Assembly (NCBI GenBank): GCA_027563935.2
Contig: CM050449.1
Coordinates: 91,791,676 to 91,855,675 of the forward strand
DNA length: 64,000 nucleotides
Source of the DNA: Costus lasius
Taxonomy: Eukaryota; Streptophyta; Magnoliopsida; Zingiberales; Costaceae
Direction: 5' to 3'
In this document: positions 4,478 to 64,000 of the stretch, piece after piece
Position numbering within the stretch: the stretch's first letter is position 1
Layout of the letters: the number at the start of each line of letters is the position of its first letter
Program-made: the position numbers and the translations under genes
Notes under the pieces: model-generated
The model's input: only the letters and a program-made list of their open reading frames with translations
The model's database searches: none
Told to the model about the DNA's origin: nothing

Positions 4478-4985
4478 CACAATTACGGCCGAGGCCATAA
4501 TCTATATCATGACCGTAATCCCCAGTTTAACTTTCCGATGGACCCGTTTTTATGCAAGCATGAAGTTACACCCTTAACTTCCTGAATAGCAACCTCTAGG
4601 AAGATAAAAACCTTGACAAGAGACATTACGGTTATGGCCATAATCTCTTGATCAGCAATCTTTGACATCACACTATGGCCGAAATTCAAGTCAAGGTAAA
4701 CATCATCTCACCTACAAATTTTTAGATGAAACGGAGTTTGACACTGAAATTACGGGCATAGCCGTAATTACCATTACGCCCATAATCGCACCGAGAAGCA
4801 ATAAAGGTCAACATTCAATTGGTCATAACTTCTTCGTTATAACTCCAAATCGAGCGTTCTTGGAGTCATAATGATGAGCATTTAATGGGCCACAATTATG
4901 TGAACGTTTTGAGAAATTAAGAGCTTCGATGAAGACATTATGGGCATAGCCGTAATCTTGATTACGGCCATAATCTCTCTTCAGC
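4478..4985. repeat. Hairpin-unit array in LTR A
   Basis: About five units pair a motif such as ATTACGGGCATAGCCGTAAT with a nearby inverse such as ATTACGCCCATAAT. Clear units lie near 4480-4520, 4623-4650, 4750-4790 and 4935-4975. It is the same design as in LTRs B and C, with a different core (GGGCATAGCC or GGCCGAGGCC). Confidence 0.65.
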
Positions 4986-5102: not shown

Positions 5103-5110
5103 TATATAAA
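5103..5110 (+). promoter_or_regulatory. TATA box of LTR A
   Basis: TATATAAA follows the hairpin array by about 120 bp and lies within the LTR, where a retroelement promoter would be expected. The related position reads TATAAGA in LTR B (8661) and TTTAAGA in LTR C (about 14089). Confidence 0.55.
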
Positions 5111-6026
5111 GGGTGAAAAACCTGTTGCAAAGGGGCAACGAGTTTTGGCAGGGGGTGGTGATCTTGGTCGAAAGCAAGTAAGAAGGAGATCTTGATGTGC
5201 CCATTCTAGAAGGCTTGAAGAGGATAGCGGCTGCCCTTCTTTGAAGAGTTTACTCCTTTTCTCTCTTTTACCTTCTCTTTGTTTCTTCCTTCTCCTACAG
5301 ATTTGTATCGTAACAACGCTATGATAGCATAATTTCTTTATCAGAACTAGGGTGTAGTTGAGTTGTGTATATCTTTTACTCGAACTTGTCTTCTTATAAC
5401 AAATGCAAATTTATTTCATGTTTATTCTTTCTATGTCGTTTTACTACTAGAATTGCCATGATCACATAATTACTTTTCTTGGGCATCACAAGAAGGACCG
5501 AAAGGAGAATTGCGATGTTAGATTTGTCGGATCGAGCATACTCTGTGCTGTCAATAAATGGGGCAAGATTTGTATGAGGAAATTTATAGTATCTCTTAAC
5601 CCATTGGATCAATCTAGATCCGGTTTGCTATGAAAATAGGATGCCGATCTAGATTGATACCGGATTACACTATCGAAAGAGGGTAATCTGTACCACTAGA
5701 TATCTCCTTAAACACTTTAAATTTGCATTGTTATGATATTATCTTGTTCGAGTTTTAGATCCGCCAATGAGACAAACCCAAAGTTTCAATGTCTCTAAAT
5801 CTAGTTTTGTACCCAGAACTATCTTTTGCATAATTCGGTTGTCTTTTGCTTTTAATTATATTCGATTTAATTTCTGTAATCTCAAACTACCTAATCGATT
5901 GTCTAGCTGTTAATTTATAATCTCTTAGTACTTGATCACTGTCTCTGTGGGATCGACACTTAAGTGCTACTACGACAAAGTCATTACGCTTGCGATTAGT
6001 AGTACAATAAAGTACACATCAAGTTT

Positions 6027-7941: not shown

Positions 7942-9732
7942 TGATGACTCAAAAATTAATAGTATATTTTATATTAATTGTTTAGTCTTTTGAGTTATAT
8001 TTATACTCTTTTGTTAGTTTTTAAGCTTAATTTGTCATATAGTTCGGAATCTACATCTTTTCTAGTTTTTGATCAATTTCAAGTAAAAAGGCCTTTATTT
8101 CGATGGATTCTGAATGATTTGAATGCATAGACAACATCTAATCATCAAGAGGGAATTACTAGCTAATTTTCAAGAAATTCCGAGCTCAAAGTGAAATTAC
8201 GGTAGTGCCGTAATTATTATTATGGTCGTGGTTTTACTGAGACCTACAGAATAAACCACGGCACCACTGTGATCTATTTTTCTCTACCGTGATTTCTGAA
8301 GATTTTTGCATAGAGAAGATTACGGCACTGCTATAAATGTTTTTACGACCGTAAATTTATTCAAAGAGAAATTGAAGCAATCATAGCACTGCCGTAAAAT
8401 TTATCACCGGTCGTAGTTATTCCAGAAAAGTAAACATAGCAAATCATGGTACTGCCGTGATTATTATTACGGGCCGTAATTCTTCCAAGATTTTGCACAG
8501 AAAAGATTATGGTAGTACCGTAATTTATTCCACGGCTGTAATTTTAACTTAATAGCCGACTTTGCCTGAGTCTTCCGCGAGTTACTATAGCCGGATTTTG
8601 CGAAGCCGATTTTGGTAGATTTAAGACACGATTTCAAAATCGGAAAGAATGGAAAGAATCTATAAGAGGAGGAGAAGATTTCAAGACGAGAGGCCCCAAT
8701 TTTGATCAACTACAGAAGGAGAAATCAGGGAGATCGCTGCCGCCTTAGGGTTCTTCGTCGAAAGATATACAGAGCATCTTAGACGGCGAAATTTTCAGGA
8801 AAGCTACGCTTGAGGAACCAGAAGATGAACAGGAAGTTTCAGAATGAAAGGAGTTCGATCAGAGGAGGAATCAACAAAAATGTGGGCGCGGCTACTATTC
8901 ACTGTGTTTCTTCACAAAAAATAATGGGTTGTGATGTATTTCACACCCCTGTAACAGTAACTCTATCTTTTTCTCCTTCTTTGAATTTTGATTTTTCTGA
9001 AATGACATATTATTATAAAATTCTTACCATGATAGTGTAAAAACCTTTTTGGGACAGGGGGGGAGTAATCCTAGAGTTTGTAACCTGTACTGAGAGGTGA
9101 CTTACAAAACTCGAAACCCTTAAATTATGTTTTAGGAACTTATGCTATGAGAATAGGTTTATTCTTAATTCCTAATTTTTTATGCTTGAATTCTTGTTGA
9201 TAATCTGATCTAGAAATTTTTATTGAAATAGACATGAAAATATATACCGAGAGGTGATTTCGATTGTTAGAAACCCTTAAGTAAAACCTATGAAATTAAG
9301 ATATGAGAATATTTAATTTTGCTTGAGATGTTGACACTGAGAGTTAAGCCGCGAGAGTGATTTTAACTTTCTTTGTCTATTTTACATATTTTAAACACTG
9401 AATAGCAAGTCACGAGAGTGAAGGCTGTTCAGTGTAAATTGTTCATCCGAGAGGAGGCAATTTCTTTATTAGTAAATTTCATCTTTATCATAAGAAGAAA
9501 AGCTGACAAACACAAATTTATGTCTAATCATAGAAATATAGGAGGATGAAACCCTAGTCCCAAACTTCTCTCTCTAATAATCCGTAACAGTTTCCGATCG
9601 TTCACTTACGACTTCTTACAAATTGATTCGCTTAGCTAGTGAGAACATAATTACTTGGTATTTAACACATAGGTCCCTGTGGGTTCGATATCTTTTATTA
9701 CTTCGAGTTTCCGTACACTTACAGACGCAATA
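7942..9732 (+). mobile_element. 5' LTR of element B
   Basis: It starts TGATGACTC and ends six bases before the primer site. The first half (7942 to about 9060) closely matches 31017-32118, while the second half matches its partner poorly. It contains a six-unit hairpin array (8190-8550) and TATAAGA at 8661. Relative to LTR C and the 3' LTR, a block of about 140 bp is missing just after GGAGTAATCCT near 9070. Confidence 0.8.
8190..8550. repeat. Hairpin-unit array in 5' LTR B
   Basis: There are six units, each about 60 bp apart. The first reads ATTACGGTAGTGCCGTAAT followed by an inverse TTATGGTCGTGG, and the last pairs TACCGTAAT with ACGGCTGTAAT. Copies vary mainly by A/G and C/T changes. Confidence 0.75.
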
Positions 9733-13260: not shown

Positions 13261-15279
13261 TGATGACTCCAAATTTCATAGTGTTTTTCATACTTATTTG
13301 GTAGTCTTTTGAGCCATAGTCTTACTCTTTTACCTTGCTTTTATACCCTTTTTTACCAAATACTTCAGAATCTACACAATCTTTGGTTTTTAATCAATTT
13401 CAGGTAAAAAGGCATCATTATCACTGGTTTTCGAGCAATATCAATGCATGAATGAGTTCTAATCATCAAGAGGAGCCTACCCATAAAATTTCAACTCAAA
13501 AAGGTTCTTCTAGCAAAAATACGGCACTGCCGTGTAAATATACATGGTACCGTATTTCACCGCTTTCAACCAGACAAAAATACGGTGCTGCCGTATTTTG
13601 TCCCAGAATGATCATGGTACCGTATTTTGCGTTGATTTCATCCAGAAGACCTAAGCGAAAATACGGCACGGCCGTGTAGAAGTACACGGTACCGTATTTA
13701 TTGGCGATCCAGAACAGAAAAGTTCAGCAGAAATACGGCACTGCCGTGGACGTGTACACGGTGCCGTATAATTGGACGAATTTAACCAGAGAGTTTTGAC
13801 ACAAATACGGCACTGCCGTATGAATCTTCACGGTGCCGTATTTTCTATCAATTCTGACCAGAAGGATTTGGAAAGAATACGACACTACCGTATTTTGGAG
13901 AAAAACTCTCACGGCACCATAATTTTTGTCCGGAACTCACAGAATGAAATACAGCACTGCTGTATGAATCGTCACGGTGCCGTATTTTGGAACTCAGAAT
14001 TTTGATTTTTCCGCCCGATTCTTGCAAAGATCATATATTTTGATCCAGGCCTCCAAATTGAGATCCGAAAGAGGCAGTGGACTCATCTTTAAGAGGAGAA
14101 AACACAGAAAGTGAAAGGAACGAACTTTATCACGAATCCACAGAGAAATTGAGGGAGAGGCGAAATTGCTAGGGTTCGTCGGTTCTCCACCTATAGACCA
14201 CCTCCTGCCACGATTTTTGATAGAGAGCTTCATCTGGTGAAGGAGAACACGCACCTCAAGTTCCAGAGTGTTCGAAGTTGAATTGAAGGAGAAATCGACA
14301 CAATAGTGGTGACGGCGCTGTTCAAAGCAAATTACGGGCTGTAATTTCATTACAGCCCTGTTTTGTAATCTTTCTTCCCTCTTTTTGATTCCTTATCACT
14401 CTGAGAACATGTTTTATTGTAATCCTTTCATCATGGTAGCTTAATCTTTTTATGGGACATGGGGGTGTAATATCTTTATTTCTTAATGGCTAGAAAACCC
14501 TAATTTTGTCAAACTGATTTTATTATGATAATTTTACTCTTGTGATTGATTATTCTTTAATTCTCCTTTGTGTCTTAAATATCAGCATGTTTTAGAATTT
14601 TGCGAAATAGATCGAGAGGTTGATTGTTTGAAATTCGGAACCCTAGGAATTATTGAGTTTGGAACTACCGTAAGAGATTAGGTTGTTCTTCGAATTCTGA
14701 TTTTTAGAGAGCTACAATGCCTTGTTGAATTTCTGATACTTTGGATTGAGTTAATGTGTAGACTTGATTTGATATTGCAAGAGATTGAGTATCGAGTCGT
14801 TGGAAACCCTTGAGTAAAACTAGTGTTGAGACTCGGATGCACGTGAGTGATCTTTGAGTTTCCACTTGAGGTGATCAACCTAGAATTCGGATGCACGAGA
14901 GTGATCCTTGAGTTCTTAGCTGATGGTTTACTTATTTTCAGCATTGAATAGATCTTGCGCGAGAGTGGGGATCGGTTCTTTGTATGATTGTCTGCGCGAG
15001 AGTGAGACAATTTATTTATAAAGTAAATTTTACCTTTACCATAATAGAATTAGATTGACAAATACTTATCTTAATCTAGTCATTAGAATTAAAGTAAATG
15101 AACCCCTAGTCCCAATTTCCTCTCTGATATTTTCTCCGTGTTCTTTTTGATAGTTTGATTCACTATTTTTCGATTGCCTAGCTACCAAGAAATCGATTAT
15201 TCAGTACTTGGCAACAAGGTCTCTGTGGTTCGATAATTTTTATATTACTTCGAGTATCCGTGCACTTGCGGACACAACA
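13261..15279 (+). mobile_element. 5' LTR of element C
   Basis: It starts TGATGACTCC and ends ACAACA before the primer site. It contains the most regular hairpin array of the window (13515-13993). The first 554 bp are matched by 19327-19880 with few differences, mostly transitions. Its right half is homologous to the corresponding parts of LTR B. Confidence 0.9.
13515..13993. repeat. Seven-unit hairpin array in LTR C
   Basis: Units start near 13519, 13577, 13660, 13730, 13801, 13876 and 13948, about 70 bp apart. Each has a left arm such as AAATACGGCACTGCCGTG and, 8-20 bases later, a right arm such as CACGGTGCCGTATTT. The arms pair with each other, and each arm is itself nearly palindromic. 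Open frames here on both strands are a by-product of the inverted repeats. Confidence 0.85.
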
Positions 15280-15285
15280 AGTTTT

Positions 15286-15303
15286 TGGCGCCGTTGCCGG
15301 GGA
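15286..15303 (+). other. Intact tRNA-Asp primer-binding site of element C
   Basis: TGGCGCCGTTGCCGGGGA is the exact complement of the 3' end of plant cytosolic tRNA-Asp with CCA, the usual primer of Athila elements. It follows the LTR end by six bases. Confidence 0.92.
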
Positions 15304-19326: not shown

Positions 19327-19880
19327 TGATGACTCCAAATTTCATAGTGTTTTTCATACTTATTTGGTAGTCTTTTGAGTCATAGTCTTACTCTTTTACC
19401 TTGCTTTTATACCCTTTTTTACCAAATACTTCAGAATCTACACAATCTTTGGTTTTTAATCAATTTCAGGTAAAAAGGCATCATTATCACTGGTTTTCGA
19501 GCAATATCAATGCATGAATGAGTTCTAATCATCAAGAGGAGCCTACCCATAAAATTTTAACTCAAAAAGGTTCTTCTAGCAAAAATACGGCACTGCCATG
19601 TAAATATACACAGTACCATATTTCACCGCTTTCAACCAGACGAAAATATGGTGCTGCCGTATTTTGTCCTAGAATGATCACGGTACCGTATTTTGCACTG
19701 ATTTCATCCAGAAGACCTAAGCGAGAATATGGCACGGCCGTGTAGAAGTACACGGTACCGTATTTATTGGCGATCCAGAATAGAAAAGTTCAGCAGAAAT
19801 ACGGCACTGCCGTGGACGTGTACACGGTGCCGTATAATTGGACGAATTTAACCACAAAGTTTTGACACAAATATGGCACT
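19327..19880 (+). mobile_element. 3' LTR of element C, truncated
   Basis: It matches the first 554 bp of 13261-15279, then breaks after ATATGGCACT within the fifth hairpin unit. The next base belongs to the surrounding solo LTR F1. About 240 bp of F1, judged from F2 (about 56283-56522), is missing at the same point, so a deletion removed the end of C and part of its host together. Confidence 0.85.
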
Positions 19881-20874: not shown

Positions 20875-23334
20875 AGTATTTTGTTCTAGCAGATTTTGTG
20901 GTTTTAGAGATGGAGGAGGATGTTAAAATTCCTATCATATTTGGTAGACCGTTCTTAGCTACAGCAGGGACAATCATTGTTGTAAAGAATGGTAAACTCA
21001 CTCTTAATATTGGTGAAAACAAAATTGAGTTTGATTTAACTGAATCTATGAAGAAACCATCATATGCTGGATCTTGTTGTAGTATTCATGTTGTAAATGA
21101 CTTTGATTATGACCTCATACTTTGTTTGATGAACATTCTGATTCTGATCCTAGTTCTGAAACTCATGATTTATTAGACTGCACTTTGTGTGATGATCAAG
21201 AAAATCAGGAAGAAAATTTTCCAAAAGTTGAATTGAAAACTCTACCAAACAATCTTCGTTATGAATTTCTTGGACCCAATTCTACTTACCCTATTATTAT
21301 TGATGCACAGCTTGATGAAAGAGAGACAGATTTGCTTCTAAAGGAGTTGAGAATTCATAGGAAGGTAATTGGGTATTCCATTGATGATTTAAAGGGAATT
21401 AACCCCTCTTTTTGTATGCACCGGATTCTTATGGAGGAGGAACACAAACCACATGTGGATTTTCAAAAAAGGCTTAACCCCTCTATGAAAAAAGTTATAA
21501 AAAAGGAGGTTTTGAAATTACTTGATGCAGTTATTATCTATCTTATCTCTGATAATAAATGGGTAAGTCATGTTCATTATGTTCCTAAAAAAGGGGGTGT
21601 GACTGTAATGAAGAGTAAAGATGATGAATTAATTCCTGTTAGGATAGTAACTAGTTGGCGCATGTGCATTGATTATAGGAAATTGAATACAGCCGCACGG
21701 AAAGATCATTTCCCCTTACCTTTTATTGATCAAATGGTTGAAAGGCTTGCTATTCATTTTTATTTTTGTTTTTTAGATGTGTATTCTGGATTTTTATATA
21801 TTCCCATTTATCCTGATGACCAAGATAAGACCACTTTTACATGCTCATATGGTACTTTTGCTTATAGAAGAATTCCTTTTGGTTTATATAATGCACCTAC
21901 TACTTTTTAGAGGTGTATAATGGCTATATTTTCAGATTTTATTGAGGATTTTATGGATGTTTTTATGGATGACTTTTCTGTATATGGTTTTTCTTTTGAT
22001 GATTGTTTGGCTAACTTATCTCAAGTTTTGCAGAGGTATGAAGAAACTAATCTTGTTCTTAACTAGGAAAAATGTCATTTCATGGTTAGGCAGGGAATAG
22101 TTTTGGGACACTTAATTTCAGAGAGAGGGATAGAGGTTGACAAAGCCAAGATTGAAGTGATTGAGAAGTTGATGCCACCCACTACAGTCAAGGAGATCAG
22201 AAGTTTTTTGGGACATGCAAGATTCTACTAGCATTTCATCAAGGATTTTTCTAAACTCGCTAGACCACTTATTAATTTGCTTTATAAAAATGTTAAATTC
22301 TCTTTTGATGAAGGATGTTTGTCTGCCTTTCAGGATTTGAAGAAAGCTCTGATATCGATGCCCATCATGCAGCCGCCTAACTAAAGTTTGCCTTTTGAGC
22401 TTATATGCGACGCTAGTGATTATGCAGTAGGAGCAGTGCTAGGTCAGAGGAAAGAAAAGAAACCCTATGTCATCTACTATGCTAGACGAACCTTAGATGA
22501 AACACAGAGGAATTATATTATCACTGAAAAAGAAATCTTGGCCATTGTTTTTTCTTTTGATAAATTCAGGTCATATTTGATTAATTCTATGGTTATGGTA
22601 TGTACAGATCATGCAGCGATAAAGTATTTGATACAGAAAAAAGACAGTAAACCACGTCTTCTCAGATGGATTTTACTTTTGCAAGAATTTAATTTGGAAA
22701 TCAAAGATGAGAAGGGAGCAAAAAATTTTGTTGCATATCACCTTTCTAGGATAAAGATAGATGCAGATAAAGGTGACATAATTAATGATTCCTTTCCTGA
22801 TGATCAACTCTTAGTCATTGAACAGATCAAGGCTTCATGGCATGCTAATGTAGTAAATTATTTAGTTGCTAATGTTTTTCCTCTTGATTTGAGTTATCAA
22901 GGAAAGAAGAAATTCTTAGCTGAGGTAAAGCACTATTTTTGGGATGAGTCTTATGTATTTAGAAGATGTGCAGATGGAATTTTTAGGAGATGTGTACCTG
23001 AGGAAGAAATCATGGATATCCTATTTCAGTGTCATGGATCATCTTATGGAGGGCATACTAGTACTCAGAAGACTACTTTTAAGGTTTTACAATATGGATT
23101 TTATTGGCCCTCAATTTTTAAGGATGCTAGACATTTTATATTGTCTTATGATAGATGTCAAAAGATAGGAAATATTAATAAAAAGAATGAGATGCCACTA
23201 TCTACTATACTTGAGGTTAAGATATTCGATGTTTGGGAGATAGATTTCATGGGACCGTTCCCATCATCTGGAGGTAACAAATACATTCTTGTGACAGTAG
23301 ATTATATTTCTAAATGGGCAGAGGCTCTTACTTC
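20875..23334 (+). pseudogene. pol of element B: protease end, reverse transcriptase, RNase H, integrase N-terminal part
   Basis: This continues the frame left at 12535. Protease ends with ADFVVLEMEEDVKIPIIFGR (about 20889-20948). After a frameshift near 21110, reverse transcriptase runs about 21235-22380, with CIDYRKLN, the FLDVYSGF aspartate motif and the catalytic FMDD box (about 21963). RNase H runs about 22388-22780 ([33 protein letters not shown]). The integrase HHCC zinc site ([12 protein letters not shown]) and the first core aspartate ([10 protein letters not shown]) follow. In-frame stops lie at 21908 (TAG), 22064 (TAG), 22229 (TAG) and 22382 (TAA). Solo LTR D1 interrupts it at 23335. 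Confidence 0.9.
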
Positions 23335-25024
23335 TGTTGGGGTATGCCCTTAAGGCTAATGTTTGAGGCCTTGGGATTCTATGAGTATCATGTATATAAA
23401 CTCTTATGTTTATAAAGGCAATGGTTGTTATTCGGTATATTACATTGTCTGCTGCAATAAGTATACTTCCGAATAATGTCTCAATGCTGTTCAGCTAGGC
23501 TGACATGCAGTGAAGTCCTTAGTCGAGATATCTTGGTGAACATGAGACAGCCTTGATATGATTGAGACTAATATGTGTTCTAATCTTATAGGATGCTTCG
23601 AGCATGGAATAAGATGTAGACTCATGGGTACATTGGATGTACTGGACAGACCCTACTAGGATATTCAATTGCTTGTCACAATGTGAATAATCCTTGTTTG
23701 CAACAAGTGGCACATGTCCTTTGACTTGAGATCACTTGTGTTTCTAAATGATGATTGTCATTGTTTTGAGGTAGTTCAATATCATTTGAAATATAATGGT
23801 TATAGACTATCTTGGATAATGATTATGATTCAGGTTAGGGCACTAGTGATAGATATAGGATTGCTGTCTCCTTGTTGAAGGAGTGTGATGTTCTATAGGG
23901 GCCCCCTAGATGAGATGATTGAGAAAGTGTATGGCCATACCCAGGTGACTATGTTCATCTGATCTAATCATGCTCATCATATTGGAGTTACAAGCTTGAC
24001 CCGCTTGTCCAATAAGAACATCCAGTAGGCAAAGGATACATGCATGCCTTGTGAAGTTGATTCACACTTGTGCTGTGGTTTGGGTGTAGTCTTGGAAGAC
24101 TTTTTCCTTTATATCGGGAGACAGTGATGTATTGCTAGATACCCCTCACTGGTCGTGATAACGTAAGTTATCGTTACCGACATTTAAAGGAAACCCTCAG
24201 GGTCACACAATTTGGTGATATGGCTTTCTTGAGTCAGATCGTGTGGACTGAATTATTTTGATTCAGTTTAAAGGAGTTTGAACTCTGATTGTAAGTGAGA
24301 TCGGGTCTGGTCATGTTTGATTGATTAGGGCTTGAGATCGGTAAGCTTCGATCGAGAGTAGTGATGCTAGATCGGTGAGATCAAAGGCATCAAGAGATGA
24401 ACGGTTAGATCTTGAACCATTTGGTTCAGAGAGATCTAGACCATGGCTTGGGCTGGTTTGGTTTGGTCTTTGTACCAAACGCATTGAACCGTTGGATTGA
24501 ACCGGTTCACACATGTGTGAACGCATGGTTCATGATGAAAGCGTTTTTGGGCGGTTTGCATGGATTTAGGCGCATGGCTTCATGACTTTCCATAATTGGA
24601 AGTCATGTAACGCCACTTAACTTGTAAACGCCAAAACGCATTTCGGTTCTGATTTTGTGTGGCCGATCCACTCTCGTGTAGATGGGAGTTCACGCAAGTA
24701 AGCGGGAGAGCTTCATCGCCCTAGCAAAAAGATCTCATCTTCTCCACACAAGGACAACTTGGCACTTTTGCTAGCACAAGAGGTGCGCAAGAAGGAAGTC
24801 TTCATCACTTTGGTGTGTGTCTTCTTTGGAGAAGATCCCCTTCGATCTTTACTTCCAAGTCGCCATCCACTCATGGCTATGGTATGAATTACTTCTTATC
24901 TATACAAGTTATGATGTTGATCATATGGCATGCAAAAGATCCCAACAAACCCTATGCTTCCTTGCGCAATTCATGATATGCGCCTACTTAGGGTTTCGCC
25001 CCCCTCTTGAAAGGGGTTTCTTCA
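23335..25024 (+). mobile_element. Solo LTR D1 inside integrase of element B
   Basis: It is 1690 bp, begins TGTTGGGGTATGCC and ends TTCTTCA, with perfect 5-bp duplications ACTTC (23330-23334 and 25025-25029). Removing it and one duplication reconnects the integrase core segment across the site. It is about the same length as D2 and shares its whole sequence with modest divergence. It has no internal region. ORFs on it are not related to known proteins. Confidence 0.93.
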
Positions 25025-25029
25025 ACTTC

Positions 25030-25842
25030 TCCAACTAATGATTCTAGAGTAGTTGTAAAATGTTCAAGAAGATCATTTTTCCACGGTTTGGAACGCCAAG
25101 AGTTGTGATTAGTGATGGAGGCTCACACTTTATAAAACATAAATTTTCAGTCTTACTTAGGAAATATAGCATTAATCATAGAGTTGCAACACCTTATCAT
25201 CTCCAAACAAGTAGACAAGTTGAGATATCGAACAGAGAGATTAAGGGGATTTTGGAGAAAACTATGTCACGAACAAGAAATGACTGGACTTCTAAACTTG
25301 ATGATGCACTTTGGGCATATAGGACTACTTACAAAACATTGATAGGTATGTCTCCTTTTCAGTTGGTTTATAGTAAATCATGTCATCTACCTATAGAGCT
25401 CGAGCATAAGGCGTTCTAGGCAATCAAAGCATTGAATTTCGACTTGAAGAATGCGGAGGAAAAACGAAGGTTACAATTGAACGAGCTAGATGAAATTAGA
25501 CTCTCCGCTTACAAAAATGCAAGGATTTATAAAGAGAGGACAAAAAGGTGGCATGATCGACATATTCTCAGGAAGGAATTTCAACCAGGTGACCTTGTTC
25601 TTTTATTTAATTCAAGATTAAAACTTATTCCTGGTAAACTTAAGTCTTGATGGTCCGGCCCTTTTCAGGTTAGAAAAACTTATCCCTATGGAGCTGTGGA
25701 CATATGGAGTGACAAAACAGGGGAATTCAAAATTAATGGCGAGAGGTTAAAACATTATTTCATGGAGAAACAAAACGAAAAAAGAACGAAATTGCAACTC
25801 AAGGAGCCTCGATCAGATTTAAGTGCAGAAGGGTCAAGCTAG
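25030..25842 (+). pseudogene. Integrase C-terminal part of element B
   Basis: This is the second half of the integrase catalytic core, with the second aspartate in [16 protein letters not shown] (about 25084-25131) and the glutamate region [13 protein letters not shown] (about 25208). It is followed by an [20 protein letters not shown] segment typical of the Ty3/gypsy C-terminal domain. One A is missing near 25059, shifting frame just after the D1 site, and stops lie at 25417 (TAG) and 25648 (TGA). The reading ends at TAG 25840-25842. Confidence 0.88.
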
Positions 25843-26816
25843 TGACCTAAAACTTAGCGCTTCTTGGGAGGCAACCCAAGCACTCTTACTTTAGTTTGTT
25901 TTATTTTTATTTTTGCATACTAATTTTTCTTTTTCCTTTTTGAAGGTGAGTCTAAGTTAATTTTTATGAGGGAACAGTAATTTTTGAAATTTTTGCACAT
26001 ATTACGGTAGGGCCGTAATTATTTTCACGGGCCGCAATTTTGCATTACTTTCGACCAGAGAATTTTATGGCACCACCATAATTATTTTAACTATCCGTAA
26101 TTTGTAGTCGATTCTTTCTAGAGAGATCTACTGTAGGGGTGTAAAATATTTTACACCCGTGATTTTATTCATTTTTTTTTAAAAAAAATGTTTTTTACGG
26201 TGGTACCATAATTTTTATCACGCTCGTATTTTGGAGCAATTTTCTTACAGAACATATTACGGCAGGGTTGTAATTATTTTTACAGACATAATTTTATTTT
26301 TAGGATTTTCCTAGAAATTTATATGAGGGTGCTGTAATTTTGTTTATCGCCGTGATTTTGAGTGATTTTGTTACCGAGCGTTTATGACAATGCCACAATA
26401 TAAATTATGGTCGTAATTCTGTCGGCCCTACATGATTCTGCTGCCGTATTTTTTGGGTTTGCTGCCATGGTTTAGGATTTTTCACCCGTGGTATCTCTCG
26501 ATTCGGCGCTGCCTCTTCGATTTCAGTCCACCTTTGCTTCCCAAACCCTCCGGTGACTCTTTCCGACCATCTCCAACCTACATTCCGGTGATTTCAAGCT
26601 TCAATCTGGTTTTTGCAGCGTTTGTCAGCCAAGCTTCTGCCTTTTTCATTTTTCATCAATGGAGCTTTGCCAGAGCTGATTCTTGCTTCCAGAAGATTCG
26701 TAAAGGGGAGAAATACTTTCCTGAAGATGTTTGGAGGATTGATTTCAACTAGAAAGTTCAGATCTGATTTTCCAAATTTTATTTCCAGCTTTTACATTAT
26801 ACTACTTGGATCTAAA
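25843..26816 (+). other. Spacer between pol and third ORF of element B
   Basis: It is noncoding. It begins with GCTTCTTGGGAGGCAACCCAAG, then T-rich DNA, then an eight-unit hairpin array of LTR type (25990-26475), then a moderately GC-rich leader up to the ATG of ORF3 at 26817. The order array-leader-ORF mirrors the LTR, where the array precedes the promoter. Confidence 0.7.
25990..26475. repeat. Eight-unit hairpin array in the internal spacer of element B
   Basis: Units repeat about every 60 bp, beginning TATTACGGTAGGGCCGTAAT with a following ACGGGCCGCAAT and ending near CTGCTGCCGTATTTT. Several are worn. The third unit includes a perfect 22-bp palindrome at 26137-26158. The arm sequences match those of LTR B. 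Confidence 0.7.
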
Positions 26817-26917
26817 ATGGCACCAAGGAAGCAAGTGGTATCAAAAAAAAAGGAAAGGGTCCAGCTGAGTCTTCCACACCTTCACCTCTAAACCTGTATG
26901 GGATTGTATTTAGGGAT

Positions 26918-28611
26918 TGTTGGGGTATGCCCTTAAGGCTAATGTTTGAGGCCTTGGGATTCTTTCAGTATCATGTATAAACTCTTATGTTTATAAAGGC
27001 AATGGTTGTTATTCAGTTTGTTACATTGTCTGCTGCAATAAGTGTGCTTCTGAATAATGTCTCAATGCTGTTCAGCTAGGCTGACATGCAATGAAGTCCT
27101 TAGTCGAGATATCTTGGTGAACATGAGACAGCCTTGATATGATTGAGACTAATATGTGTTCTAATCTTATAGGATGCTTCGAGCATGGAATAAGATGTAG
27201 ACTCATGGGTACATTGGATGTACTAGACAGACCCTACTAGGATATTCAATTGCTTGTCACAATGTGAATAATCCTTGTTTGCAACAAGTGGCACATGTCC
27301 TCTGACTTGAGATCACTTATGTTTCTAAATGATGATTGTCATTGTTTTGAGGTAGTTCAATATCATTTGAAACATAATGGTTATAGACTATCTTGGATAA
27401 TGATCATGAGTCAGGTTAGGACACTAGTGATAGATATAGGATTGCCGTCTCCTTGTTTAAGGAGTGTGATATTCTGAAGGGGCCCCCCTAAATGAGATGA
27501 TTGAGAAAGTGTATGGCCATACCCAGGTGACTATGTTCATCTGATCTAATCATGCTCATCATATTGGAGTTACAAGCTTGACACGCTTGTCCAATAAGAA
27601 CATCCAGTGGCAAAGGAAACATGTATGCCTGGTGAAGTGGATTCACACTTGTGCTGTGGTTTGGGTGGAGTCTTGGAAGACTCTTTCCTTTATATCGGGA
27701 GACAGTGATGTGTTGCTAGATACCCCTCACTGATCGTGATAACGTAAGTTATCGTTACCGACATTTAAAGGAAACCCTCAGGGTCGCACAATTTGATGAT
27801 ATGGCTTACTTAAGTCAGATCGTGTGGACTGAATTGTTTTGGTTCAGGTTAAAGGAGTTTAGACTCTGATTGGAAGTGAGATCTGGTCTGATCATGTTTG
27901 ATTGATTAGGGCTTGAGATCGGTAAGCTTCGATCGAGAGATCTGGTGCTTGATCAAGGAGATCAAGAGCATCATGTGATGTATGGTTAGATCTTGAACCC
28001 TTTTTGGTTTAATGAGATCTAGACCATGTCTTGGTTTTGGTTTGATTTGGTTGTTGAACCAAAGTCAATTGAACCAGTTCACTTATGTGAACGCATGGTT
28101 CAAATGATAGAGCGTTTTGACAAGTTCACTAAGCGTGAACGTGTGAAGACTTAAGACTTACCATATTTGGAAGCCTTAACGCCAAAACGCCTCAAGCCAA
28201 GAAAAACGCCACGGAATGCTTCAATGTTTTTTGCTCTTGGGTTGCGCTCTCTTGAGGGTGGCTGGTCTCGACGAAGAGAAAAAAGAGGAGAAGGCATTCG
28301 GCAATCCAAGAATACATCAAATCTCCTTCACACGGTTAGGAGACTTGGATTTCCTTGCTAGCACAAGGAGAAACAAGGAGAAGCCATCTTCATCTTGTGT
28401 GCGCGCCGTTTGGAGGAGATCAACTTTGTTCTCTTGATTCCAAGTCGCCACCCACGCTATGGCTATGGTATGATCTTATTTAGATCTATACAATATGTTA
28501 AGTTGATCATATGCTCTTACTTGCGATCCTATGAAACCCTTGCATCCGCTGCAAAAGTTCTATATGCGCCACCTATAAGGGTTTTCGCTCCCCCTTGAAG
28601 GGGACTCTTCA
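26918..28611 (+). mobile_element. Solo LTR D2 inside ORF3 of element B
   Basis: It is 1694 bp, begins TGTTGGGGTATGCC and ends CTCTTCA, with perfect duplications GGGAT (26913-26917 and 28612-28616). It is closely similar to D1 throughout its first 1.1 kb and diverges more in the last 500 bp. No internal genes are present. Confidence 0.93.
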
Positions 28612-29612
28612 GGGATGAGATACAAGAAGCAAGATACAATCAGCTACTCACCAGGCGTGTTGTCAACACAAAGTTTGCTAATAAGCACACCTTAGAGATC
28701 CTAGGCCTATATGATGATATTTTTTGGATGTTTGATCAGATCATGGCCAGGAAGTTCTTCCAGATTTCACCACAGACATACCTCCCCCTAGTTCTGGAAT
28801 TCCTTAGTAGCTTGGTAGCTTGGATATGGAGCTTCATGAATATTCTGAGCATCTGGCAGATGCTCAGATTACCTTCCACCTAGCTAATGTTAAGAGGAGC
28901 CTCATGCTCCGAGACATCAGAGCCATCTTCCACTTACCTGGAGGAGGACACACACATGTACCAGTGGGGTTCATTGAACATGCATTTTGGAATCAAATCA
29001 CCTCGAAATCAAGTTTTTCACCTTCATCAGCTAGGGCGACCAGCATCTCAAACCCCTGCATACGATACGCACACCGAGTTCTAGCACACACCGTCTTCGG
29101 ACGTGGAGATAGCGATGGTATGGTCCGTCAATCTGAGCTTTATTTTCTTTGGTGCATGCTCCATGGTTATCCTGTAGATTTAGCCTTTTTCTTGATTAAG
29201 CACTTTGATAAAGTGGCACGAGCAAAAAGGGGTGCAAATTGTTATAGGTGGTTTCCTTACTCCTATTACACTCTCTTTGGGTGTGAAGCCCTATGGGATT
29301 GAGGTTGCTAAGGGGAATGCCAGAATTGATATTGAATCATGCGTGGCAATGAAAATGATTGTTAGGGAAGGGGATAGTTATTGCTTGATTCTTGGACCGG
29401 GTGCTCCTACTTTACCATTACCTAACAAGGAGAAAACTATGGTCTAGAACCAAGCAAACTGGAAGCTTTCCCTAAGTGCAACTGCCAACGCCACTCCTAC
29501 ACCTTTGGACTCAGTACCACCACCACCCACTTGGGGTGGTAGTGATGACCCTTTTGGTATGAGCATGAACTCCCCACCACACAAAGCTGTCGGATCCTCA
29601 TCGTGTAGAGCT

Positions 29613-29690
29613 GCCCCTGATCAGAGAGGATGGTCGAGTGCCCATGAGAGTGCCCCTGATCAGAGAGGATGGTCGAGTGCCCATGATCCT
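29613..29690 (+). repeat. Two 39-bp coding repeats in ORF3 of element B
   Basis: GCCCCTGATCAGAGAGGATG starts at 29613 and 29652. It encodes APDQRGWSSAHES and APDQRGWSSAHDP. The copies are almost identical, so the duplication is recent relative to the rest of the element. Confidence 0.85.
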
Positions 29691-29945
29691 GGCTTTCAGG
29701 CTCTATCTGCTGAGGTATACCGTCATAGTCGCCTCATGGAGAGAGTGCTTAAAGCCATTGAGCACATACATGAAGATATTGAGGACTTGGGGAGTTATAT
29801 GGAGGAGATGGGAAATTTTCTTTACGACAGGTTCAACGGTGAAGATAGAGATGAGGGTCAAGAAGATAATCTGAATGACCCTATGGAAGAAGCCGCTCTA
29901 GCTGAAGAAGAGAACGAGGAGACAGATTCCAACGCCGACGAGTAG

Positions 29946-31016
29946 AGCTTTGTGAGTATTCCTTTACCTATCTATGCTTTATTTATCTTTATACACTATT
30001 GATGATACATATTCTTGTAGGGAAGGATGACTCAGTCATGCTTCCTGCATCCGGTGCTCTTCGGTTTTATATTTTGTGTTCTAGATATTGATTCGATTTG
30101 GTTGTACCCTAATATTGTGATATTTGATGACGATGTTATTGAGCACCATACATAGGTGCATTCTGGTTTTTTGGATTGTATGACTTATAACTGAATGATG
30201 TGTTTTGTTCTTGGTATATGCACTGACTGCTTATGATGGTATGTGAGGTTTTTACTCTTTGTGGATCTTGATAGATATATTTCTGTGCTGATATACTCAT
30301 TTTTGTGATGATGAATGTCTATGCATGTCAATGTTTGAGAATGGAAATATACCTATTATGCTGAATTTATTTCTTCAATATATATCATCCTATTGAGATT
30401 TTTTATTGATTGATGCATGAGGTTTTGGGTAAGTATGTTGTTTAAAGAATGCAATATGAGAGTGAAGCATCTTTCTTAAATAAAATGAGCATATGAGTAT
30501 AATTTTTTTGAATTGATGTCAATTGAGTAACCTAGTTGATGTTTAATCTATTTTGCTATTTGTTGGGAAGAAAGAATCCAAGATCCAAATTCGTCACCAA
30601 AAAAAAGATATGAGTTTTAATACATCGGCTATGTGGTCGATGTGCTCTAAATTCGTCACAAAAAAAAAGGTGGTAATCGATTTAGAGAATGTCAAAGATG
30701 AAAAAGAGAGAATTTTAAGTGGAAAAAGATTTTGGAGATCCTATTCTTGTAAACAAAAGTATTATGGATTTTAAACTAAAACTTTGGTAAATTCATGAGA
30801 CTGAGTTGTGAAATTTTATTTGACTAAGTTGTGAATCTTAAGGATTAAATTCAGAGGACGATATATTTATTTAAAATTTTATGAAGCATTTGGTGAAATT
30901 TTTCATGAATGATTATATTTTAGAAATGTATTTTTCATAAAAAAGTTTATTCTCCATATTTAGCATTGTTCTCTTTATTTGCTTGAGGACAAGCAAGGTT
31001 TGAGCCTTATATATTT
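29946..31016 (+). other. 3' noncoding tail of element B
   Basis: It is AT-rich and aligned with the tail of C. It has the word AAATTCGTCAC-AAAAAAAA twice (about 30587 and 30652). The end shows CTTGAGGACAAGCAAGG, then GAGCCTTATATATTT and the LTR. A clean polypurine tract next to the LTR is not seen. Confidence 0.65.
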
Positions 31017-32960
31017 TGATGACTCAAAAATTCATAGTATATTTTATATTAATTGTTTAGTCTTTTTAAGTCATATTTATGCTCTTTTGCTTATTTTTAA
31101 GTTTAATTTATCAAATAGTTCGAGATCTATATCTTTTCTAGTTTTTGATCAATTTTAGGTAAAAGGGCCTTTATTTCGATGGATTTTGAATGATTTGAAT
31201 GCATGGACGACATCTAATCATCAAGAGGGAATTACCAGCCAATTTTCAAGAAATTCCGAGCTCAAAGTAAAATTACGGTAGTGCCGTAATTATTATTACG
31301 GCCGTGGTTTTACTGGGACCTATAGAATAAACCATGGCACCACTTTGATTTATTTTCTCTACCGTGATTTCTGAAGATTTTGCTGTAAATGTTTTTACGA
31401 CCATAATTTTATTCAGAGAGAACTTGAAACAATCATGGCACTACCGTAAAATTTATCACCGGTCGTAATTATTCCAGAAAAGTAAACAGAGCAAATCACG
31501 GTACTACCGTGATAATTATTGTGGGCCATAATTGTTCTAAGATTTTGCACAGAAAAGATTACGGTAGTACCGTAATTTATTCCACAGCCGTAATTTTAAT
31601 TTAACAGCCGACTTTGCCCGAGTCTTCCGCGAGTTACTATAGCCGGATTTTGTGAAGCTGATTTTAGGAGATTTAAGACACGATTTCAAAATCGGAAAGA
31701 AGGGAAAGAATCTATGAGAGGAGGAGAAGATTTCAAGACGAGAGGCCCCAATTTTGATCAACTATAGAAGGAGAAATTAGGGAAATCGCAACCGCCTTAG
31801 GGTTCTTCACCGAAAGACGTACAGAGCATCTTAGACGGCGAAATTTTTAGGGAAGCTATGCTTGAGGAAGGAGAAGACGAACAGAAAGTTTCAGAACGAA
31901 AGGAGTTCGATCGGAGGAGGAATCAACAAAAACGTGGGCGTGGCTACTGTTCACCGTGTTTCTTCACAAAAAATTATGGGTGGTGATTTATTTCACACCC
32001 ATGTAACAGTTACTCTATCTTTTTCTCCTTCTTTGAATTCTGATTTTTCTGAAATGACATATTATTGTAAAAGTCTTACCATGATAGCGTGAAAACCTTT
32101 TTGGGACAGGGGGGAGTAATCCTCTTAATTTCTGAAATAATTAGATAATCTCCATTTTGTCAGATGTTCTTCGATATGATAATTTTACTTAAGTGATAAT
32201 TATCTTTAATCTTTTCTAAATTTAGAATATCAGCATATTTTAGTGTTTGTAACATGTATTGAGAGGTGACTTACAACACTCAGAACCCTTAAATCATAGT
32301 TCTATAGCTTAAACTTCTTTTTCGAAATACAGGTAGTCTATTGAATTTCTTATATTATAAATTTGCATTGTTTCTTCTATTTTGTGATTCAACTCAAGTT
32401 AATTTAATTATGGATGTGCTAAGTTACATGTTTTTGTTCTGGCCAAATAATTACATATTTTAGATATAATAAGATGCACTAAGAGATGATTTTTACATAT
32501 TAGAAAACCTCATAATTAAACCTATAAAGTTAGTCTATGAGTGTGATTAAAATTTCTTGAGGGTTTACAATTTATCATAGAATTTAATGAGTTTATTTAA
32601 TTTGATAGGCTAGAGTGTTTATTAAATTAATAAAATGTCATGGTGGGCTATTGAGAGGGGATGATCTGTAATTTAGGACAAATCTATTTAACTTATTTGA
32701 ATAAATTAATAGAGAAATTTCCTTGTTTAAATATTTGAATTTAATATGGTGAAACCTTAGTTCCGAACTCTATCGAATTTTTAGATCTTGTTTGAATTCC
32801 TCAATTGTTTTAAATTTGTTTTTCTTAGCATTGATCTTATTCATTCATTTTGGTTTGTCTAACTAGTGAGTTTAGAATTTGTTGGTATTTAGTATTTAGA
32901 TCCTCGTAGAAATAATATTTATTTATTACTTCAACTAGCTATGCACTTGCGGCCATAATA
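31017..32960 (+). mobile_element. 3' LTR of element B
   Basis: It starts TGATGACTC. The first 1.1 kb, with a worn hairpin array at 31260-31605, closely matches the 5' LTR. From about 32118 it keeps the overall plan of the family (GTATTGAGAGGTGACTTAC, GAACTCTATCG, GCACTTGCGG) but differs heavily from the 5' LTR. The end near 32960 is set by the GCACTTGCGG..ATAATA match to the C and B 5' LTR ends. Confidence 0.75.
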
Positions 32961-54012: not shown

Positions 54013-57005
54013 ACTATAACATTTGATTTGTATGAAAATTTATCTGAAATTAGTGAAGTTATGTCGCGTAGAATGTCCAGTTCATAGTCGAACTTATGAT
54101 GTTATTGTTGAACTTATGATGGTAATGTTGAATTTTGTCAAATATAGTCAAATTTGACTGAATTTTGATCGAAACTTACATGACACCAATGAAATAGTAT
54201 CAATTATAGTGAATTTATTTCTATGAATATTTGCACATGATTTTATTGCTGAACTTCATAAGTATATGCATATGAATTTTGATCAAAACTTGCATGACCC
54301 AAACTTTCATGGAGCTAGCTGAAATAGTGTTATGTGACTTGGTATGACTTGGACACAATAATATTTAATTTATATATTTTTTTTCAATCTCTAATTCCCT
54401 GTTTTTTGTTAATTGATGATACCATTAAACTTCTTCTCATTTTGTTGAACTTAACCCAACTTGACCCAAACCTAGGGTAATGAATAGACATGTTGTCATG
54501 TGACTTGGATACAATAGTACTTAATTTATACATTTTTTAATCTCTAATTCTCTATTTTTTTTTAATTGATGATATCATCAAACTTCTTTTCAGTTCGTCG
54601 AACTTGACCCAAATCTAACCCCAAACTTGACCCAACTTGACCCAAACCTGAGGGTAATGAATGAACATGTTGTCATGTGACTTGGATACAATAATACTTA
54701 ATTTATATATTTTTTTAAATTTTTAATTCCCTATTTTTGTTAATTGATGAAATTGTCGAACTTCTTCTCATTTCGTCGAACTTGACCCGAACTTGACTCA
54801 AACCTGGGGGTAATGAATGGACATGTTGTCATGTGGCTTAGATACAATAGTACTTAATTTATACATTTTTTTCAATCTCTAATTTCCTGTTTTCGTTAAT
54901 CGATGATATTGTCAAACTTATTCTCATTTCGTCGAACTTGATCCAAACCTAATCCAAACTTGACCTAAACCTGGGGGTAATGAATGGACATGTTGTCATG
55001 TGACTTGGATACAAAAGTACTTAATTTATATATTTTTTTCAATCTTTAATTCCCTGTTTTTGTTAATTGATGATATCATCGAACTTCTTCTCATTTCGTC
55101 GAACTTGACCCAAACCTGGGGGTAATGAATAGACATGTTATCATGTGACTTGGATACAATAGTATTTCATTTATATATATTTTTTTCAATCTCTAATTCT
55201 CTATTTGTTGGTAAACCCCGGTGATATTTTATAATTTTACACAGAGATTACATTTGCACAGCGAAAGAATATCCCCGAAACAGGCCGGTCCCAAAAACCC
55301 AGTGAAGATCGTCTTGCGAGGGAGTCGACACGATGAGATAGAAAATACCTTAGGGGCAAGATGAGGCCGATGTTGAGGTAGGCGCCCAAGCGTTCGCCCT
55401 CTGCAGTCTCGCATACATGGATGCCTCGAGCTCTCTTCTTCCTCACCCGGTGCTAGCCTCGGGAAGAAGATCCAAGCCTTAGGTGCTCCTTCTCCTATGC
55501 TTGCGCCACCTCCAAGGATGAAGCGCCAATGATGGACAAGGGAGGGAGAGGTAGCCGCCAAGCTTTAACTCCTTTTCTATACTTGCGCCACCTTCAAGGA
55601 AGGTGTGCCAAGATGAAGAAAGGGGATGAAGACACCAAGCTTTGTTCCTTCTTACGCCAAGAGAAGGAGGAGGGAAAAAGCTTGCGGCTAGGGAAGATGC
55701 GCTGCTCTCTTCTTGCTCTCGCCCCTCAAGTCTTGCTCACGCCAATTAGAATTGCGCAAGGGGCTCACGCATGCATCTATTATATAGATGCAAGAGGTGG
55801 TGGCAAGAAAAAGGTGTGGAGGCGCAATAATCATGAAGGATGCGGCTAGGGTTGAATGAGGGAGCAATTAGGGTTTAGGGTTTGGAAAGTCTCCAAGACT
55901 TTACCATAAACTCTTCCTAATTTCCCATATGCGCCAAGGACCTTCCTAAGAAGTCCTTCAAGCCATATCAGCCCCAAGACTTGCCATAAAGGCAAGCATA
56001 CCATCAAAGGATGAGGGGGGAGGCGCCTAAAGCTTCCTAAAGAAGCAAAATCGCCCACTCCACCCCATTATGCCCCTAGGCGCCAATAGGGTGGAGACTT
56101 CTCCCCATTATACCCTTTTAGTCCATTGTCTCTTCATGACAACTTGTTATTGGGCCTCATTGGATAATGAGCAAGCACAAACTTCATTACATGGGTTGAT
56201 TAAGCTATTGGATCCAATCCAATGCAACCCTAATCCAAATGTGACCAATCTTGGTCAATTTAGGGTCAACCTGCCAAAAATAAAGTTTGGCTCCAATAAC
56301 TATCTTCCATCTCATCAGGCCCATTGGCGCTGATGAAATCTCCAAAATAGATCCAAGTCATCTAATAACTCGATCATAAGGCTTCCCGATCAATACGAAA
56401 ACTCGAGTATCAAGGTGTGCGACCCTGTAGGTTCCTTTGACGTTGGCAGTGCTGACCTAAGGTCACCACAAACAGTGAGTGGCACCTAGCAGTGCATCGC
56501 TGCTACCCAAGTCATCGGAATGGATATTGACATCGACATCCCCATCATCGCAACTAGGTACAGATGCATTACAGTCTCTTTGCCGAACTGATATCCGATT
56601 CGACAAATGTGTCATCACTTGTTTTCACCCAATCTCATGGTTATGACTAAATCAGGTTGTCACCTGGGTATGGCCATACACTTTCAGTTATATAACCATA
56701 GAGGAGCTCCATGGATATCAAGCTTCCCTTAGGAAGGGGCAAATCCTCTATCTGTCCATTGACCTTCTCATATGGGTCGTGACATGCTCAATGACAACCA
56801 TTATTACCTCTCAACTATGGCGAGGTATTAGGTTGTATCAAAGCATATCCTTAACCATATAGAATGGTCAATGACCTCAAGTCAAGGGATCAATGCATCT
56901 CCTGTCACTTGTGAGGATAATTCATGACACCAAGAAATTGCCTCACAGCGGGTCGGTCCAGTATATCCACCACTGATATACCCATATGTCTGCGTTAGCA
57001 CCTCA

Positions 57006-63289: not shown

Positions 63290-63817
63290 CCTCGTGCCTA
63301 ACCAGCCCATATACCAGTCCACAAGTACCAGAGCTGTCTCATATCCACTCAAGTACATCGACTGGGGACAACCATTTGAGCACAGATCCAATCTGTCTCC
63401 AGGGACATTATTATGTAAGTACACAATCGTAGATGTAGACAAACATTGATAATGACAATGCCAGAATGATATATAAATATTAGTGTCAAGTAGTACAAAG
63501 ATGGACCAAAACTAGGTCTCAGGGCATACACACCAACACTGTTTTTGTTAATTGATGATATCGTCGAACTTCTTCTCATTTCGTCGAACTTCTTCTCATT
63601 TCGTTGAACTTCTTCTTATTTCGTCGAACTTGACCCAAATCTAACCCAAACCTTGGGGGTAATGAATGGACATGCTATCATGTGACTTAGATAAAATAGT
63701 ACTTAATTTATATATTGTTTTCAATATCTAATTCCATATTTTTTTGTTAATTGATGATATTGTCGAACTTTTTCTCATTTCATCGAACTTAACCCAAACC
63801 TAACCTAAACCTGTGGA

Positions 63818-64000
63818 TAAAGCAGTGTGTTGCAACAATGAGAAATTCTAGTTCAACTGAGAGCGATCCTCAGTGTGATATGGATGTGGAAGATGAATCT
63901 TTCACTGGAAAAAAAAAGCTAGTGTTTCTTATAGTAGATGTTAAATGAGTAGATTACACTCATTCATTGATAAGGTGTCAAGTGGATGTGATCTGAAGCA
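63818..64000 (+). other. Exon-like sequence at the right edge
   Basis: After the last minisatellite unit, AAAGCAG|TGTGTTGC could be a splice acceptor. ATG 63839 opens MRNSSSTESDPQCDMDVEDE, a serine- and acid-rich start, but the frame closes at 63944. If real, the exon would end near the A-rich run at 63911-63919 or the copy is broken. No family recognised. Confidence 0.3.

Follow-up and report, generated by a model that had tools for sequence, protein, structure and literature searches.

Arrays of paired CGG-CCG dyads in the LTR and before the env-like gene of Athila-type retrotransposons of Costus lasius

Introduction

How the env-like genes of plant retrotransposons are expressed, and whether they have any role, is an old open question. 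A 64,000-nucleotide window of the Costus lasius genome (C4:91791676-91855675 in a 1.28-Gb assembly) carries nested LTR elements and raises the question in a concrete form: what are the regular arrays of short palindromes that stand in the LTRs and, in one element, again between pol and an env-like gene? The initial annotation of the window described one such array (13515-13993) as seven hairpin units with nearly palindromic arms in an Athila-type LTR. It proposed selection on the structure or on a palindrome-binding factor.

A layout of this kind is on record for the Sireviruses, a Ty1/copia group. Their repeated motif (RM) has a CGG-CCG core, and its LTR copies lie before the TATA box (Bousios et al., 2010; PMC2829016). 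Extra copies occur in the linker of nine ENV-bearing elements, where 77 of 79 precede ENV. The motif was termed Sirevirus specific relative to other Ty1/copia elements and was seen as supporting an internal ENV promoter (PMC2829016).

Results and discussion

Each unit consists of two dyads at a fixed spacing

Array C (13518-13990, plus strand) lies in U3 of the 5' LTR of element C, as annotated. This LTR (13261-15281, plus strand) starts with TGATGACT, and we place its end at about 15281 because the primer-binding site TGGCGCCGTTGCCGGGG lies at 15286. All seven units were recovered, with left half-sites starting at 13518, 13579, 13660, 13732, 13804, 13876, and 13948. The pitch of 61, 81, 72, 72, 72, and 72 bp agrees with the reported periodicity of about 70 bp. 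A unit has four half-sites: CGG, N5 (N6 in array A), CCG, N12 (or N21), CGG, N0-2, and CCG. Thus, it contains a left dyad with a centre of 5-6 bases and a right dyad with a centre of 0-2 bases. In array C, CGG-N5-CCG is followed by N12 (five units) or N21 (two units) and then by CGG-N2-CCG. The inner stem is weak in the two units with 21 bases between the dyads: of 4 flank letters, 2 pair in the unit at 13579 and 1 in that at 13876. The arms are near-palindromic because each is a dyad, and the annotated hairpin is the unit folded on itself. The paired words quoted for it are the commonest form, from which individual units vary. A single long hairpin as the unit was set aside in view of model-free spacing counts (below), which favour two separate dyads at a fixed distance. 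The spacers at 13570-13863 carry a CCAGA-like word (six in this copy of the array, C5, and one to three in B5, B3, and D).

The same design is present in the other LTRs for which it had been claimed (4478-4985, 8190-8550, and 31260-31605), and it is retained while the sequence drifts between families. Array B5 (8196-8545, plus strand) has six units of the form CGG-N5-CCG / N12 (N13 once) / CGG-N0-1-CCG within a B-type LTR (7942-9072), which is perhaps the 5' partner of the element B 3' LTR (89.7% identity). The latter (from 31017) contains array B3 (31272-31598, plus strand). The first unit of B3 lies 293 bp beyond the polypurine-tract-side motif TTGCTTGAGGACAAGCAAGG (PPT motif; 30979-30998, plus strand) upstream of the LTR. 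Array A (4482-4978, plus strand) is in LTR A, which starts near 4301 with TGATGTCT. It has four units by eye and three at score 14 of the model described below, with the form CGG-N6-CCG / N12 (3/4) / CGG-N0-CCG. The 3' LTR of element C (19327-19880, plus strand; 97% identical to 13261-13814) has its array from 19584 (C3) and breaks off at 19880, inside the fifth dyad unit. Array B3 has a 23-bp deletion relative to B5 (8306-8328); no other indel in the alignment of the B LTR parts is as large. The LTR break in a dyad unit and this indel within an array suggest that the arrays may be deletion-prone. For 28 units of the window that were delimited manually, the gap is N12 in 23, N21 in three, and N13 in two.

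None of these arrays was picked up by Tandem Repeats Finder. Two other repeat regions lie outside them. Within the window, predicted folding is most stable at 2091-2491, in G+C-rich CCGTGCC/GGCACGG repeats, and a tandem array of 156-177-bp units occupies 54345-55214, with related pieces at 63542-63820.

A further array precedes the env-like gene of element B

The pol homology of element B (21212-25752, plus strand; blocks 21212-23335 and 25057-25752) has the gypsy-type order of reverse transcriptase (RT), RNase H, and then integrase. A repeat insert (23335-25024) interrupts it, and a second copy of this insert (26918-28611) lies inside the env-like ORF region (26817-29945, plus strand), for which we inferred a candidate ATG at 26817. 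Pfam detected ATHILA ORF-1 (PF03078) in 28811-29299 (E 5.7e-12), downstream of pol. Matches to the env piece were also found in five genome loci (L016, L018, L019, L022, and L023). This agrees with the annotated Athila-type identity, and from ORF content and Pfam matches we assign the elements to the Athila lineage of Ty3/gypsy. We also take the type of primer-binding site to be a mark of this lineage.

Array D (26001-26420, plus strand) lies in the pol-env intergenic region, between the end of the pol homology (25752) and the candidate env-like start (26817). Its six hits (26001, 26064, 26194, 26256, 26320, and 26381) are mostly of the form CGG-N5-CCG / N12 / CGG-N0-1-CCG. It aligns with the B LTR array at 62% over 371 columns. 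We rejected the idea that D is an inserted piece of LTR: its flanks (25800-26000 and 26431-26917) gave four short LTR matches with E 0.06-0.44, similar to those of the control matches (E 0.35-0.93). All five scored units of D fit the B dialect better than that of C, although for three of them the fit to A is slightly closer than that to B. As an anchor for related copies we used the motif GCGCTTCTTGGGAGGCAACCCA, located just after pol (25857-25878, plus strand; the post-pol motif).

The spacing recurs beyond chance in the window and across the genome

Exact triplet counts at distances of 0-30 bases set the arrays apart from the rest of the window. The arrays hold 11 exact CGG-N5-CCG (11/42 CGG-to-CCG pairs) against 1/126 elsewhere, and 10 exact CCG-N12-CGG (10/17) against 2/145, with the arrays of LTR pairs included and hence not independent. 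We also trained a score model on the five LTR arrays of the window, with array D held out. At score 14, it recovered six units in D, all in plus orientation, and no unit on either strand elsewhere in the window (one at score 10, three at 8). Over 48 genome loci (260,097 bases), scanned with gaps of 11, 12, 13, and 21 allowed, the model found 309 units and none in the reversed sequence. Furthermore, the 18-mer AAATACGGCACTGCCGTG from the arrays occurs genome-wide, at up to two mismatches, 10,741 + 10,975 = 21,716 times (reversed control, 2 + 0).

A free count of spacings in 28 genome loci (L008-L035, which are related copies) gave 134 distinct left dyads. The next CGG followed at 12 bases in 58, at 11 in 11, at 21 in 35, and at another distance in 6; the remaining 24 had no CGG in reach. 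Distinct CGG-N5-CCG numbered 115 and CGG-N2-CCG 109, and every other spacing from N0 to N11 was present at most 10 times. The spacing is, therefore, a conserved feature of the arrays. The inter-dyad gaps in these loci take the values 11-12, 21, 30-31, and 39 (with one of 9), in steps of about 9 bases. As N12 and N21 differ by 9 and a few gaps are of 30, 31, or 39 bases, the data agree equally well with 9-base steps and with a helical turn. Pitch (about 63, 72-73, or 136 bp) and right centre (N0 or N2) vary among the dialects of the genome loci, which mostly have N12 between the dyads in scans restricted to gaps of 11, 12, 13, and 21.

The six arrays (A, B5, B3, C5, C3, and D) are also strongly foldable as RNA on both strands (z -3.7 to -9.4, from 60 dinucleotide shuffles each), with z of -1.8 to +0.9 in four control stretches. 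The observed/expected ratio of CpG is 1.0-1.55 in the arrays against 0.66 in the window, at an array G+C of only 0.33-0.44.

Arrays occupy fixed places in U3 and accompany env

Of 19 distinct places that have U3 units, mostly C-type, 18 have the first unit 291-296 bp past the PPT motif; the exception (L033) had 268 bp. This count covers 22 loci with three places seen twice (L009/L010, L012/L016, and L015/L023). One locus (L020) has the PPT but no U3 units. In four additional loci (L058, L059, L060, and L062), the distance was 293-295 bp. These fixed places indicate that the arrays are old and that their position was inherited while the letters drifted, so the families are not independent trials. 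TATA-like words follow arrays A (5103-5111, plus strand; 125 bp beyond the array end), B5 (CTATAAG at 8660), and C5 (CTTTAAG at 14087) in the window. They follow 9 of 37 LTR clusters in the genome loci, where some clusters end at the edge of the stretch. No TATA-like box was present within 420 bp after array D, and among five pre-env arrays there was one such word (TTTATAG).

The post-pol motif has 13,237 near matches genome-wide (control, 0), and we used it to ask how often a pre-env array is found with and without env. In a first sample, 20 stretches chosen from the hits listed for the LTR-array word, the five env-bearing elements (L016, L018, L019, L022, and L023, with env matches between the post-pol motif and the PPT) all had 5-6 pre-env units in addition to 3-6 in U3. 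None of the 12 env-less elements, in which the PPT follows the post-pol motif after 1.2-1.6 kb and no env match was found, had any pre-env unit. Three stretches could not be classified (L017, L021, and L024), including one (L021) with 3.8 kb in this region and neither an env match nor a unit. As this sample had been selected via the array word, a second one was drawn regardless of arrays: every fifth of the first 100 exact post-pol matches listed (n = 20, 2.2 kb each), all within the first 32 Mb of one contig. Seven of its eight env-bearing elements had 3-7 pre-env units and the eighth had one. Of four env-less elements with a PPT, three were without pre-env units and one (L055) had two; all four had 2-6 units in U3. 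The eight unclassifiable stretches comprised four with arrays, one with a single unit, and three with none. The pre-env array is thus associated with env in two small samples, in which the env-less copies lack the whole stretch, so that the absence of the array may reflect one deletion.

The pre-env array also keeps its place. It starts 144 bp past the post-pol motif in element B of the window, 146-148 bp in five elements, and 115-210 bp overall; one family has 670-820 bp. This family (L039, L042, L046, and L047) is the one with the 136-bp pitch; in the one copy with a clear PPT motif (L039/L063), a scan of the next 3 kb gave no U3 units. Among the units of five C-type elements, 21 of 27 in the pre-env arrays and 30 of 31 in the LTRs have N2 as the right centre.

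The dyad cores change slowly by transversion

To compare rates, we took the site labels from one part of the copies and the substitutions, per compared letter pair, from the other. In 14 U3 regions (excluding duplicate places, L020 with no units, and L015), the transversion rate rose from 0.052 in cores to 0.127 in half-site flanks and 0.157 in spacers, and was 0.133 outside the array. In five pre-env regions, it was 0.027, 0.079, 0.119, and 0.033, respectively; spacers there change faster than sequence outside the array, so the contrast with the cores is partly one of fast spacers. Cores were below spacers in 20/20 splits for U3 and 10/10 for pre-env regions, with splits that are not independent. 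With 18 U3 regions, some places counted twice, the values were 0.072 for cores and 0.172 for spacers. The CGG/CCG cores, therefore, change by transversion 3-4 times slower than the spacers. Transitions were not clearly lower in cores (0.167 vs. 0.196 in U3, 0.106 vs. 0.126 in pre-env regions), as predicted by decay of methylated CG. The two LTRs of element C differ from each other at 17 of 301 sites in the array and at 2 of 254 sites beyond it. Fifteen of the 17 differences are transitions, and 12 of these fall at CG or CHG.

Paired dyads as putative protein-binding sites

From sequence comparison, we consider it probable that a protein recognizes the arrays as clustered sites in double-stranded DNA, which would serve both the LTR promoter and an internal promoter for env. 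The unit, with CGG-N5/6-CCG and CGG-N0-2-CCG at a fixed distance, could dock one dimeric factor or two, and typically 4-7 units would act together in an array. In Athila elements, one array would be retained in U3 ahead of the LTR promoter. Env-bearing elements would have a second one in the noncoding stretch after pol, to drive or regulate an env promoter that presumably lies directly after it. The bound protein would activate transcription rather than counter silencing. Arrays could then drift in sequence as long as they retain the spacing. Under such binding, the strong fold on both strands would be a by-product of the palindromic sites.

Selection on RNA hairpins is the first alternative. 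The genomic RNA has U3 at its 3' end and the second array at the pol-env junction, where hairpins could act in stability, export, packaging, or env translation, or as start points of host small-RNA production. Palindromic LTR regions are small-RNA hotspots in maize Sireviruses (Bousios et al., 2016, as cited in PMC5311732 and PMC10760457), which likewise have palindrome clusters with strong predicted folds in the regulatory part of the LTR, but are Copia elements. The predicted folding of our arrays is strong, yet equally so on the minus strand. In 20 window units, true partners were no better than partners swapped within the same array in three of four pairings. The inner stem was borderline (P 0.05 with these 20 units and 0.025 with the 28 manually delimited ones, which omit the degenerate B5 unit 2, B3 units 2-3, and D units 3 and 6, as well as A unit 2 and the truncated C3 unit 5). 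Partners are thus largely interchangeable within arrays, and the selection on the fold that had been proposed is not supported in that form.

Genome units were shuffled globally, which leaves family structure in. Units with N11-13 (n = 111) showed a small excess of true over shuffled pairing for the inner stem (2.41 vs. 2.23 of 4 flank letters, reached by 3 of 3000 shuffles) and the left dyad (2.26 vs. 2.16). In contrast, the 77 of 188 units with N20-22 had no inner stem beyond shuffling (1.14 vs. 1.16), and their left dyads were near-perfect (3.81 of 4). The outer stem was good in both classes (3.38 and 3.83 of 4, respectively). Column shuffles of the window alignment (20 units; A, N21, and N13 units also excluded) reached the covariation score in 0/500 for the left dyad and 4/500 for the inner stem, a signal that, as far as seen, mainly reflects change between families. 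The majority letters of family C pair 7/7 in the outer and inner stems and 5/7 in each dyad, as expected if RNA pairing mattered. However, among 112 half-sites of the window, changes from CG to CA, which break the RNA pair (14), were about as common as those from CG to TG, which keep a G-U pair (17). The N21 units without an inner stem, together with swapped partners that do nearly as well, provide little support for RNA-fold selection, which we regard as unlikely.

The arrays could also be a passive relic, a palindromic minisatellite of an Athila ancestor that was copied along and is now functionless. Position and layout are indeed shared by descent, so that the shared descent which the initial annotation had named as refuting its claim is in part borne out. 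The units of array C share their CCAGA-like spacer word, and the arrays decay fast after insertion, as in the LTRs of element C. Against a relic count the cores that are slower than spacers by transversion, also in copies not used for the labels. So do the N12 spacing kept in families whose flank letters and centre lengths have drifted, and the association with env. We hold this explanation to be improbable, to about the same degree as RNA hairpins. As the two dyads are what the units have in common, we prefer DNA sites over both RNA structure and relic.

Who would bind these sites is a separate matter. Within the binding-site reading, an element-encoded protein matched to the dialect of its own family is an improbable variant. 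The LTR and pre-env arrays of one element do tend to share a dialect (D and B; the C-type elements; L048), but the match is loose, given the fit of D to A, and two loci (L050 and L045) show no clear agreement between their arrays. The VANC proteins of VANDAL transposons, which remove methylation, have short tandem motifs as their targets (Hosaka et al., 2017; PMC5735166), and one cluster of sunflower Athila elements has a drop in LTR methylation (PMC12844716). However, Ty1/copia elements have been published with the same core, which suggests a host factor instead. We dismissed the env-like protein as the binder: Pfam gave only ATHILA and a Transposase_32 match below cut-off in the env-like piece, with no DNA-binding domain seen, and a homolog search with its 163 amino acids, restricted to similar lengths, scored none.

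Relation to Sireviruses and other known systems

The likeness to the Sirevirus RM extends to several features. Both have many CpG-rich CGG-CCG palindromes, mostly with 5-base centres, in the upper half of the LTR before the promoter region (PMC2829016). The CGG-TASTA-CCG of Inga equals the centres of array B (tagta and tacta), and the CGG-CAGTG-CCG of Sorghum those of two of our loci (L045 and L048), array C having mostly the complement CACTG (PMC2829016). Sirevirus elements have at least 8 core copies, and array C alone has seven units, or 14 dyads, several with decayed cores. Their cluster lies 200-400 bp past the PPT, a range that includes our 291-296 bp (18/19) before a putative promoter. 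The extra cluster accompanies ENV in both (here 5/5 vs. 0/12 without env in the first sample, and 7/8, with one unit in the eighth, vs. 1/4 in the second). The elements themselves do not belong to the Sireviruses, as they have a gypsy pol and an ATHILA ORF. Furthermore, our units are paired dyads with differing centres at a fixed N12/N21 gap, whereas Table 3 of the Sirevirus study prints single dyads (PMC2829016). Unlike the RM, our arrays are low in G+C and many of their CGs have decayed. A Sirevirus cluster forms a CpG island with a conserved TATA box behind it; our arrays show a raised CpG ratio at low G+C, and the TATA-like words after them are patchy.

Other systems are more distant. Like our arrays, the VANC targets are short motifs that were tandemly amplified in noncoding parts of the element and drift between families. 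However, their motif (YAGTATTAY) is not described as palindromic in the sections on it, the elements are DNA transposons, and the cognate protein is established (PMC5735166). Athila6A of Arabidopsis is of the same lineage by name, and the passage that mentions its ENV ORF promoter describes no array (PMC4977677). Text searches of the open-licence PMC literature brought up no description of CGG-CCG arrays in Athila or other Ty3/gypsy elements. A search for external Athila DNA among viral contigs returned nothing or unrelated coding DNA. Three plant-like gypsy contigs from bacterial assemblies (L005-L007) had no arrays, but count little as an array-free comparison because their lineage is uncertain. 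Two of them (L005 and L006) are similar 9-10-kb retrotransposon contigs in unrelated assemblies of CPCC-numbered strains and are probably contamination. In the third, from a bacterial MAG, a post-integrase ORF (L007:1799-2344) matches the carlavirus domains Viral_NABP (PF05515, E 3.3e-8) and Carla_C4 (E 0.0008).

Implications

Paired-dyad arrays in the LTR and before env are a layout so far described for unrelated plant elements, the Sireviruses, and here in Athila. It is possible, though doubtful, that one CGG-N5-CCG code is read in both env-bearing superfamilies of plant LTR elements and acts on their LTR and env promoters. If so, its readers would be either one shared family of host factors or element proteins that have converged, and genomic RNA and env messenger would be switched on together. 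Foamy virus, a two-promoter virus, offers an analogy for such joint switching of LTR and env. An array at the LTR and again before env, kept across drifting families, gives a concrete and cheap test of how env is controlled. Should the code be shared with the Sireviruses, it would represent either a common host switch used by two superfamilies or a striking convergence.
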